Shown here: piece after piece, positions 2,829-5,346 of the stretch | How positions within the stretch are numbered: position 1 is the stretch's first letter | Layout of the letters: each line of letters starts with the position of its first letter | IMG/VR virus record: IMGVR_UViG_3300048997_000487 | Coordinates: 1 to 35,259 of that record | Source: a virus | Reading direction: 5' to 3' (one strand) | DNA length: 35,259 nucleotides | Program-made: the position numbers and the translations under genes | The notes under the pieces: model-generated | What the model saw: the letters and a program-made list of their open reading frames with translations, nothing else | What the model was told of the DNA's origin: nothing | Database searches by the model: none

Positions 2829-3281
2829 ATGCCATCCACCACCGAGTCTACCGAAACCAGCTACCTGATCAAGTTCGAGCGGATCGGCCGCAACCACGAC
2901 GTGTCGCCCCTGATCGCCCGCGTCCGCGACGCCGACCACCTCGCCGACGTGGTCTACCGCTACGCCTGGCCACACCTGGGCTCCCGCGACGTCGAGGTCG
3001 TCGTGAACCTCGAGCCGGACAAGATGCTCGGCCTGATCATCGTGGGTGGCGGCTTCCAGTGCGGCGGGTCCTTCACCGTCGCCCCGATGCCGCTCACCTC
3101 CGTCGAGCTGCTCCGCAAGGCCGCCGCGGCAGTCGACCGCGGACCGACCCGCGACTACTACGAGCGCGCGGCCGCCGACCACGAGCGCAACGGCGGCGTG
3201 TGCCCGGCCGGCGGCAACTGCTGGTTCGAGCGCCAGGCCCGCGACGAGCTGGCCAAGGCCGGAACGCCGGTGACCGCATGA
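2829..3281 (+). CDS. Hypothetical early protein with C-terminal Cys pair
   Basis: Protein of 150 aa preceded by AAGGAGATCGG, a strong ribosome binding site. It looks like an alpha/beta fold with alternating strands (SYLIKFERIG, DVEVVVNLEP, LGLIIVGGG), and its C-terminus carries a charged helix plus the sequence CPAGGNCWFERQ. Its stop is overlapped by the LuxR-type HTH gene. I do not recognise the family; it is a conserved-looking early phage protein of unknown function. Confidence 0.75.
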   Translation: MPSTTESTETSYLIKFERIGRNHDVSPLIARVRDADHLADVVYRYAWPHLGSRDVEVVVNLEPDKMLGLIIVGGGFQCGGSFTVAPMPLTSVELLRKAAAAVDRGPTRDYYERAAADHERNGGVCPAGGNCWFERQARDELAKAGTPVTA

Positions 3282-3628
3282 AGGTCATCACCGTCCCCAC
3301 CGACCTGTGGGACACCAGCCGCAACGCCCTCGCCGCCGCCGGCGTGCGGCTGGACGAGGTCACGACCGGCCCCGGCCAGGCGCCCCGCTACGTGGCGAGC
3401 GAGCTGCGCCCCGGCGGCACGTCGACGAACCTGACGGACCGCGAGACCGAGGCGCTACGCGGGATCGCCGCGGGCCGGTCGAACGCGGAGATCGGCCGCG
3501 ACATCGGCGTATCCGAGGACACCGTGAAGTCGCACGTGAGCACCCTGCTTCGCAAGCTGGGTGCCCGCAACCGCTTCCACGTCGTCGCCCTGGCCTACGA
3601 GTCCGGCCTGCTCGGTGGTGCCAAGTGA
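3278..3628 (+). CDS. LuxR-type (GerE) HTH transcriptional regulator
   Basis: Protein of 116 aa with the start set by the ATGA overlap at 3278. Residues 1-50 are of unknown fold. Residues 52-112 form a complete GerE/LuxR DNA-binding domain: LTDRETEALRGIAAGRSNAE, then IGVSEDTVKSHVSTLLRKLG with the recognition helix VKSHVSTLLRKL, then the dimerisation helix. It lacks a response-regulator receiver or an autoinducer domain, so it is probably constitutively competent for DNA binding or senses through its short N-terminus. It is overlapped by the RapZ-C-like gene, so the two are produced together. Its target could be a later phage promoter; that is speculation. Confidence 0.88.
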   Translation: MKVITVPTDLWDTSRNALAAAGVRLDEVTTGPGQAPRYVASELRPGGTSTNLTDRETEALRGIAAGRSNAEIGRDIGVSEDTVKSHVSTLLRKLGARNRFHVVALAYESGLLGGAK

Positions 3629-3996
3629 CCATCACCATCACCAGCTTCGGCTACGGCCACGACGCGCCGCCGCCCGCGCACATCACCCTCGACGTGCGCA
3701 GCTTCTTCCGGGACCCCCACATCGACCCCGAGCTGCGCGAGATGACCGGCCGGGACCAGCGGGTCATCGACAGCGTCATGAAGCAGCCGCGTGCACACTG
3801 GACGGCCCTGCACTTCGCCGACATCCTGCGCGGCCTGGCAAGCGTGGGTGTCGATGTGCACCTGGCCATCGGCTGCACTGGTGGCAAGCACCGTGCCCCC
3901 GTTCTCGCCAACGTGATCGCCGGTCACGTCGGCGTGGCCGCGCAGCACCGGGACATCGACAAGCCGGTTCTCCCCAGGCGGGACGGTGCCCGGTGA
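3625..3996 (+). CDS. Stand-alone RapZ C-terminal-domain-like protein
   Basis: Protein of 123 aa using a GTG start that overlaps the previous stop (GTGA). The whole chain matches the C-terminal domain of RapZ (YvcJ family): ITSFGYGH at 5-12, LDVRSFFRDPHIDPELREMT at 22-41, and the signature AIGCTGGKHRAPVLAN at 81-96, followed by QHRDIDKP. In enterobacteria this domain binds small RNAs (GlmY/GlmZ) and glucosamine-6-phosphate and regulates cell-envelope precursor synthesis. The N-terminal P-loop kinase-like domain of full RapZ is absent. The motif is intact, so the ligand or RNA-binding pocket is probably functional. A role in phage or host RNA control is inference. Confidence 0.8.
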   Translation: MTITITSFGYGHDAPPPAHITLDVRSFFRDPHIDPELREMTGRDQRVIDSVMKQPRAHWTALHFADILRGLASVGVDVHLAIGCTGGKHRAPVLANVIAGHVGVAAQHRDIDKPVLPRRDGAR

Positions 3997-4133
3997 CCAC
4001 ACGCATCGGTGACCACGACGCCGAACCCCACGGCCGCCACCGCGACGACGACCCGACCCTCACGCCGGCGACGATGCTCATCGCCGCCGCCGAGGCACCG
4101 GTGTTCGGCACGATCACGGGCGTGCTCCGGTGA
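3993..4133 (+). CDS. Hypothetical 46-aa protein
   Basis: Short frame starting at a GTG within the previous stop (GTGA) and ending in the start of the next gene in the same way. The product is hydrophilic and His/Asp-rich at first (GDHDAEPHGRHRDDD), then a short hydrophobic segment (TMLIAAAEAPVF). Support comes only from the coupled overlaps at both ends; no family is recognised. Confidence 0.5.
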   Translation: MTTRIGDHDAEPHGRHRDDDPTLTPATMLIAAAEAPVFGTITGVLR

Positions 4134-4315: not shown

Positions 4316-4494
4316 GTGCCGTGTCCATCAGCCCGTCCCAGCTCGACTCGATCGCCGCCACGTTCCGGGCCCGTGGGCGCACCCATCCCCGCGCACAGGC
4401 CGAGTGGCTGGCACTGTCCAACGCGGACCGGGAATGGTGGCGCACCGAGGTCACCATCGTGCTGGCAACCGGGAACGTGTTGGTGGCGCGGTGA
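4312..4494 (+). CDS. Hypothetical 60-aa helical protein
   Basis: Starts at an ATG overlapping the previous stop (ATGA). The 60-aa product contains SPSQLDSIAATFRARG, a Trp/Asp-rich segment NADREWWRTEVTI, and a hydrophobic end. No family is recognised. Both ends are coupled to neighbours by 4-base overlaps, which supports its being translated. Confidence 0.55.
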   Translation: MSAVSISPSQLDSIAATFRARGRTHPRAQAEWLALSNADREWWRTEVTIVLATGNVLVAR

Positions 4495-4634
4495 GCGCGC
4501 TCACTGACTCGAACCGGCGGCCGCCGCGCCGACCCGTCCGGGGAGAGCTCCCCGCGCACCGGGTTCCCTCGCCGCCCGACGGGCTGCCGGAACTGCGCCA
4601 CGCCGCCGGCCGCAGACCTGGGGGTGCCCGGTGA
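4491..4634 (+). CDS. Hypothetical 47-aa Arg/Pro-rich ORF
   Basis: A GTG-started frame of 47 aa in the chain of 4-base overlaps. The product is rich in Arg and Pro (SNRRPPRRPVRGEL), a composition that also arises in non-coding frames of GC-rich DNA. The overlaps on both sides are the main support, and it may be only a translational bridge between neighbours. Confidence 0.4.
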   Translation: MSALTDSNRRPPRRPVRGELPAHRVPSPPDGLPELRHAAGRRPGGAR

Positions 4635-5008
4635 ACCCAGTCGCCGCGCTGGCCCTCGTCCTCGGCGTCGCCTGCCTCGTCGCCTGCCTCGTCATCGTGT
4701 TCGCCTGGACCAACAGCACGCCCGTCGACCGGCGCCCCACCGCGCAACTCCGCGCCACCGACGCCGCCCTCGGCCCGCCACCACCCAGTGGCGACGACCT
4801 GTGGACCGGCATGACCGTGATCGTCCCGAACAACGACCTGTGGCAGGCGTTCACCGCCCCGACGCAACGCCCCGGCGAGGACGACCAGTGGTCCTCCTTC
4901 ACCGACACCGTCCCGAACATCCGGCGCCTGGCCGCCGCCGAACAAGCCACCCAACCCGTCGAGGACATCCCCGTCCCCGACAACCCTGAAGGGACAGCAC
5001 ACCCGTGA
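4631..5008 (+). CDS. Single-pass membrane protein with extracytoplasmic Pro/Trp-rich tail
   Basis: Protein of 125 aa. Residues 4-26 (VAALALVLGVACLVACLVIV) form an N-terminal signal-anchor. The rest is hydrophilic with two similar segments, DDLWTGMTVIVPNNDLW and DDQWSSFTDTVPNI, which look like an internal duplication of a D-D-x-W-x(5-9)-VPN pattern. GTG start overlaps the previous stop. Function unknown; topology suggests the repeats are outside the cytoplasm or along the membrane face. Confidence 0.65.
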   Translation: MNPVAALALVLGVACLVACLVIVFAWTNSTPVDRRPTAQLRATDAALGPPPPSGDDLWTGMTVIVPNNDLWQAFTAPTQRPGEDDQWSSFTDTVPNIRRLAAAEQATQPVEDIPVPDNPEGTAHP

Positions 5009-5346
5009 CGACCAAGTCCACACCGGACACCACCACGGAGCAGCGGACGTTCTCGTCCGTGCTCTTCGAGATCAACAAGGGCCGCACCCATGCCCAGCTC
5101 GGCGACGAGCTGCGCGCCCTGGTCGTCGCCGTCATGGAGACCGGCAAGCCCGGCTCCCTGACGCTGCGGCTGGACGTGAAGCCGTTGGGCGGCAACGACG
5201 AGGGCATCACCATCACCGGCCGCGTCGGCTCGAAGCTGCCGGCCTTCGCCACGCCGGCGTCGGTGTTCTTCGTCGACGACAAGCTCAACCTCAACCGCAC
5301 CCCCGGCAACCAGCCGCCCCTCTTCCAGGAGCCCGATTCCCGATGA
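5005..5346 (+). CDS. Conserved-type hypothetical early phage protein (DUF2303 partner)
   Basis: Protein of 113 aa from a GTG overlapping the previous stop. Sequence pattern: a helix (LGDELRALVVAVMET), then strands TLRLDVKPLG and GITITGRVG, then VFFVDDKLNLNRTPGNQPPL, typical of small beta-sheet phage proteins. The DUF2303-type gene starts within its stop codon. From memory, this type of protein sits beside DUF2303 genes in actinophages, suggesting a joint role in DNA metabolism, but no enzymatic motif is visible. Confidence 0.7.
   Translation: MTTKSTPDTTTEQRTFSSVLFEINKGRTHAQLGDELRALVVAVMETGKPGSLTLRLDVKPLGGNDEGITITGRVGSKLPAFATPASVFFVDDKLNLNRTPGNQPPLFQEPDSR

Follow-up and report, generated by a model that had tools for sequence, protein, structure and literature searches.

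A stand-alone RapZ C-terminal domain with an intact phosphate pocket, encoded by a probably temperate actinophage

The window analyzed here, 35,259 bases long with a G+C content of about 69%, is an entire virus record; a megablast search of its positions 1–25000 against phages gave no match. A reverse-strand frame at 1–1248 (−), which we take to be integrase-like from reading its sequence and not from a search, precedes a Cro/CI-type HTH_3 gene at 2200–2436, behind which runs a rightward string of overlapping genes. The record probably represents a temperate phage whose host is a soil actinobacterium. The string includes a 150-residue protein with no assigned function (2829–3281, +), which has a homologue in the sibling phage locus L241 described below and matched neither Pfam nor PHROGs, and a LuxR/GerE-type HTH protein of 116 residues (3278–3628, +; PF00196, E = 9.2e-17). 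Next come the gene studied here (3625–3996, +) and a 46-residue gene (3993–4133, +) that matches an 87-residue frame of L241 (51% over 41 residues, E = 1.7e-9). Four-base overlaps occur at the junctions at 3278, 3625, 3993, 4130 and 4312, and the LuxR gene shares the bases GTGA with the following gene in a different frame. The first-pass annotation had described these two genes as translationally coupled: the overlap is real and coupling is plausible from the gene arrangement, but it is generic in the window, since all five junctions share the four-base overlap and 25 of the 56 adjacent same-strand pairs overlap by 4 or 1 bases. The sibling phage, moreover, carries the LuxR gene without its partner.

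The frame at 3625–3996 (+) runs uninterrupted from a GTG start to a TGA stop, encodes 123 residues and is also selected by a codon-scored gene caller. Its product is the C-terminal domain of RapZ (RapZ-C) without the P-loop half, as the first-pass annotation had recognized. Pfam profile PF22740 is matched at E = 6.6e-24 (84.8 bits, with a cut-off of 27) over profile positions 1–120 of 121, so the whole domain is present; the product also matches phrog_18111 (E = 9.4e-30), and a PDB sequence search returned RapZ at E = 8.9e-12. An AlphaFold model built with 97 relatives has a pLDDT of 95.6 and a pTM of 0.89. It superimposes on the solved Escherichia coli RapZ-C (5o5s) in a VIA comparison with Z = 16.9 and an rmsd of 1.6 Å over 111 residues, and Foldseek places it at E = 2.2e-8 and TM 0.79 to the solved RapZ domain; the predicted fold is thus the same. 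PF22740 was the sole Pfam match in the 123 residues, and the N-terminal P-loop profile PF03668 was not found. The P-loop domain is absent, the frame starting within the overlap with the upstream LuxR gene, which uses another frame. Lacking this domain, the product matches the RapZ equivalog NF003828 (NCBIfam) over profile positions 160–278 only, reaching 74.5 bits against a cut-off of 244. A PADLOC search gave no match for this protein.

Two segments that had drawn attention in the first reading, LDVR...DPELREMTG and GCTGGKHR, are intact in the translation. The latter (residues 83–90, codons 3871–3894, +) is a C-x5-R phosphate loop, in which Cys84 ends a strand (78–84) and Arg90 starts a helix (90–102) of the model; they correspond to C247 and R253 of E. 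coli RapZ. His32 (codon 3718–3720, +) aligns with H190, which is named with C247, H252 and R253 among the E. coli pocket residues in the excerpted text of PMC5737377. Compared with 5o5s, the window protein shares H190, C247, T248, G249, H252 and R253, whereas it lacks the N-terminal domain, has Gly in place of K170 and R238, and ends in a short and different C-terminus.

Residue conservation was compared across 64 viral stand-alone copies, 20 stand-alone copies found by profile and 77 full-length rows, after two partial loci (L072 and L073) and identical rows had been dropped. Because the viral set was collected with the motif GCx[GA]G[RK]H, its Cys and His conservation is biased; the 20 profile-found copies do not have this bias. 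C247, H252 and R253 do not vary in any of the three sets, and the 20 profile-found copies all keep C-x-G-G-x-H-R, including the G250 equivalent (20/20), so these pocket residues are not lost in homologues. H276 is present in 100% of the viral, 100% of the profile-found and 96% of the full-length rows, and H190 in 81%, 95% and 47%, respectively; at the Thr248 position, stand-alone copies mostly have Ala or Val. Residues along the RNA track behave differently. K170 is basic (K/R) in 90% of full-length rows, 23% of viral rows and 0% of the 20 profile-found copies, and R238 is basic in 100%, 6% and 0%; both are Gly in the window protein. R184, R196 and K251 (as K/R), which also line the path of GlmZ, are kept in all row sets, and K203, R211 and K270 show little conservation, full-length rows included. 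In the tail, the counterparts of K281, R282 and K270 are K, P and a gap; the terminal PRRDGAR of the window protein is basic but unaligned, and no more than 4% of full-length rows have a basic residue at K270. The dimer strand YVFD of E. coli reads ITLD here and has diverged across the stand-alone lineage. In the excerpts of PMC9841335, E. coli RapZ is inactive with K170A, C247A or C247S, and GlmZ does not co-elute with the variants that were examined by pull-down; K170 is required for the binding of GlmZ. The stand-alone lineage keeps an intact phosphate pocket and has lost K170 and R238.

A colinear sibling phage, IMG/VR contig 3300049259_000230 (loci L241 and L244), shows how the gene sits in its surroundings. 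The two DNAs are about 80–91% identical in long blocks and 77% in two short ones. In L241, the LuxR gene (4456–4809) encodes a protein 80% identical to that of the window and is directly followed by the 87-residue frame (4806–5069), whose C-terminal half matches 3993–4133; neither L241 nor L244, which between them cover nearly the whole 19.6-kb contig, yielded a RapZ-C. In the window, a 15-base imperfect repeat, GGTGCCNNGTGACCA, bounds the RapZ-C gene exactly, with a left copy at 3617–3631 (+) and a right copy at 3985–3999 (+). These are its only two matches in the window, against none in 100 shuffles; a stop/start overlap falls within each copy, so that some resemblance between them is a little more to be expected. 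A single copy, GGTGCCCGGTGA, lies in L241 at the LuxR stop, the same junction. Since the sibling has LuxR without RapZ-C and the repeat flanks the gene, RapZ-C looks like a one-gene cargo, and the simplest reading of these sequences would be a one-gene insertion or replacement at this junction.

The domain is already common in phages, plasmids and other mobile elements. Its function had first been put forward as new for a phage, a claim that does not hold: phrog_18111 exists, Streptomyces phages such as YDN12 and TP1604 carry a copy annotated ‘RNA binding protein’ or ‘ATPase’, and tblastn matched 54 of 50,697 phage records, although not all of these are true phage stand-alones. Seven of the 54 were opened; the other 47 include many unannotated records, some of them probably bacterial DNA. 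Five of the seven hold the lone domain (Geonosis, YDN12, P1312, Tarzan and RHph_Y1_11), MaAM05 has a full-length gene and phi16 a fusion to an AAA_33 domain; look-alikes thus occur in Gordonia as well as Streptomyces phages. A single-protein scan of viral contigs found no relative, but an alignment query recovered 65 IMG/VR loci with stand-alone RapZ-C, none of which has a Walker A motif upstream in frame. Among plasmids, 109 of 72,556 PLSDB entries match, 56 of them from Streptomyces, and some may hold full-length genes. RapZ-C-like folds were also seen in giant viruses (BFVD), for example in Hyperionvirus and Klosneuvirus; BFVD entries with such folds include A0A3G5A6C5, A0A1V0SIZ8 and A0A481YXD0. 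In open-licence PubMed Central, judged by listings and abstracts, we found no study of lone RapZ domains in phages; such work may exist elsewhere.

The closest known counterparts are phrog_18111 (‘ATPase’, category other) and YDN12 gp55, which are the same stand-alone domain in the same length range, with an intact C-x2-G-x-HR loop. The Streptomyces phage copies are 39–44% identical to the window protein and adjoin a helicase and a membrane protein, whereas the window copy adjoins LuxR. The Streptomyces plasmid copies (e.g., NZ_CP108667.1; 37–46% identical across the full domain length among the 30 rows listed) share the mobile-element setting and are presumably stand-alone, given their likeness to those that were opened. 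Phage copies have been deposited as ‘RNA binding protein’, ‘ATPase’ or ‘nucleotide-binding protein’, and the plasmid matches listed are mostly called ‘RNase adapter RapZ’. From their sequences, the stand-alone copies do not appear to merit the names ‘ATPase’, in that the ATPase domain is missing, ‘RNA binding protein’ or ‘RNase adapter RapZ’; ‘ATPase’ and ‘RNase adapter RapZ’ were probably transferred from full-length RapZ.

Host genomes place these copies in context. A strong PF22740 match is present in all 121 Streptomycetaceae genomes, with a best score per genome of about 153–163 bits, as for full-length RapZ; 30 of the 121 have one to four further matches of about 85–106 bits (among those listed), counts that include the seed genome G002, chosen for its further matches. 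In a phylum-wide draw of Actinomycetota, 141 of 149 genomes have a RapZ domain match, with more than one only in the seed genome G001. Since all Streptomycetaceae and most Actinomycetota keep a match and the extras are patchy, the lone copies are patchy accessory genes. A quick tree of few columns (127 rows by 124 columns, every second full-length row left out) separates lone from full-length domains by one branch of one change, with an SH-aLRT of 91, or 93 without six long rows. This one-branch split argues against recent capture from hosts, and the stand-alone copies would form a lineage of their own on mobile elements, apart from the full-length RapZ of the hosts. The relatives of the window protein are under purifying selection, with a median dN/dS of 0.32 (40 of 41 close stand-alone pairs giving a ratio; the pairs overlap, and the window copy, which has no close relative, is excluded).

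A survey of 76 loci (69 non-redundant at 90%) revealed no constant gene partner of stand-alone RapZ-C. The commonest neighbor, in 14 of the 69 non-redundant loci, is a membrane protein family (e.g., L022:6444–6917, +; L202:4662–5132, +; and relatives), weakly DUF3307-like in the two members tested. Two clusters of large proteins, in 9 and 8 loci, we take to be FtsK/Tra-like. Pfam was run on 121 of the 184 listed neighbors, a list from which 11 near-duplicate loci had been left out, and returned PycTM four times, dCTP deaminase-like proteins, DUF5983 and dUTPase three times each, and others less often. In four non-redundant loci (L193:3245–3715, −; L194:3489–3965, −; L013:6640–7128, +; L030:5373–5819, +), a PycTM membrane protein, a Pycsar effector, is encoded one or two genes away from RapZ-C. 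NUDIX genes were considered as an enriched neighborhood and rejected, at 7 of 975 nearby genes; one NUDIX fusion alone was kept as a hint. In this fusion (L204:3998–4810, +), from Streptomycetaceae genome G107, RapZ-C (PF22740, 1.9e-25) and NUDIX (PF00293, 3.8e-23) share one frame. In Corynebacterium phage phi16 (L007:3584–4678, +), an AAA_33 kinase-like domain (E = 4.3e-6) is fused to RapZ-C, followed by a Cys/His-rich tail that is HNH-like by eye and has no Pfam match at 0.01; Gordonia phage Tarzan carries a separate HNH gene, which overlaps the one for RapZ-C. Both fusion partners, NUDIX and AAA_33, are phosphate-chemistry domains, which is a hint only.

A homology of the C-x5-R loop to cysteine phosphatases was noted for E. 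coli RapZ by Khan and Goerke (2020), who, in the excerpts of PMC7199280, also suggest hydrolysis of glucosamine-6-phosphate (GlcN6P); in a crystal with GlcN6P, the density is said to resemble a transformed product (PMC9841335, in excerpt). The stand-alone profile was aligned by hhalign with a profile of 26 tyrosine/dual-specificity phosphatase (PTP/DSP) sequences from Streptomyces and related loci, which placed Cys on Cys and Arg on Arg with P = 2.3e-4. The best of 33 control families reached P = 0.0087, six reversed profiles run against the full-length RapZ profile gave 0.36–0.75, full-length RapZ matched the same 26 sequences more weakly (P = 1.9e-3), and single PTP groups ranged from 1.9e-4 to 0.57. 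In VIA, the first non-RapZ structures are dual-specificity phosphatases (7ncy, Z = 5.8; 3s4o, 5.5; 5tsr, 5.2). PTP/DSP chains span Z 4.4–5.8; values of 5–6 count as common by the tool’s own scale, and the fold alone does not decide because phosphofructokinase (Z = 5.0) and methyltransferase (Z = 5.1) chains tie with them. PTP/DSP enzymes such as 7ncy and PRL-3 (5tsr) share the C-x5-R loop between strand and helix, but they have His before the Cys where the window protein has Gly. No PTP/DSP Pfam profile (PF00782, PF22784 and others) matched the window protein. Among the 98 members of alignment A3, a Pfam scan gave weak non-RapZ matches only, none in more than 6, with PF04179 (Rit1 DUSP-like) in 3 (best E = 0.03); a PDB search with their profile, at E up to 10, returned nothing but RapZ. 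Together, hhalign and VIA support kinship of the loop, not catalysis.

We would give even chances to the reading that the window RapZ-C is a cargo-encoded phosphate-ligand domain of a temperate actinophage. The protein would be a small, probably dimeric binder, and perhaps a phosphatase, of a phosphorylated ligand held by the C-x5-R loop; the ligand could be a nucleotide or a sugar phosphate, GlcN6P for example. It might tune the phosphometabolite or envelope state of the host in lysogeny or early infection, and would not deliver RNA to RNase E. Sensing of cell-wall precursors, as proposed in the first-pass annotation, is possible on this sequence, since the pocket is kept. True catalysis is less likely than a phosphate-ligand role. 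It is a tentative idea, with the odds against it, that the mobile-element copies are working cysteine phosphatases, minimal C-x5-R enzymes that are retained separately from host RapZ and strip phosphate from a host sugar phosphate or nucleotide; if so, they would reset envelope-precursor or nucleotide signals in favor of actinobacterial phages, plasmids and integrative elements.

Rather unlikely, in our judgment, is that the lone domain pairs with or competes against host RapZ, disturbing envelope-precursor control and changing the cell surface. Its outcome would be superinfection exclusion, an idea motivated by the resistance to phage JS09 on rapZ loss, or lysogenic conversion. A target is at hand in the RapZ domain protein of 121/121 Streptomycetaceae and 141/149 Actinomycetota genomes; the E. 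coli C-terminal domain alone dimerises and binds GlcN6P (PMC5737377 and PMC7073468, in excerpt), and a rapZ mutation blocks adsorption of JS09 to E. coli through an LPS change, according to the available portion of PMC8546717. However, the dimer strand has diverged, and the stand-alone lineage lies far from host RapZ-C.

The reading that the deposited name ‘RNA binding protein’ also implies, in which the domain is a RapZ-like adaptor that hands an RNA to RNase E or shields one while infection proceeds, strikes us as improbable. The isolated E. coli domain does bind sRNA, as stated in the excerpts of PMC7073468 and PMC5737377, and since R184, R196 and K/R251 are kept, stand-alone copies may make some RNA contact. 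The proposal that the phage protein binds RNA to steer infection nevertheless loses ground on K170 and R238, which full-length RapZ conserves as basic residues and which the stand-alone lineage has lost, the window copy included. Without the N-terminal domain, moreover, there is no RapZ-type tetramer, which is essential for RNase E contact according to the excerpted PMC7199280, and little of the E. coli RNA surface is conserved in general, since K203, R211 and K270 vary even among full-length rows. We lend slightly less credence to neutral or decaying cargo with no selected role: the sibling phage does without the gene, which is inserted between overlapping genes, but its frame is intact, its pocket residues are invariant and its relatives are under purifying selection. 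A two-gene switch in which RapZ-C senses a ligand for the LuxR protein is hardly credible despite the shared overlap and operon-like string, since the sibling retains LuxR at 80% identity without RapZ-C, and the LuxR protein had only two weak matches besides itself (E = 6.6e-10 and 5.1e-9) among the genes called on the loci collected up to that stage.

RapZ has so far been studied as one two-domain protein. A lone-domain lineage that is under selection, keeps the pocket and has lost two residues of the RNA track is a natural test of the pocket alone, and it bears on the question raised for E. coli in 2020 of whether this pocket hydrolyses GlcN6P.
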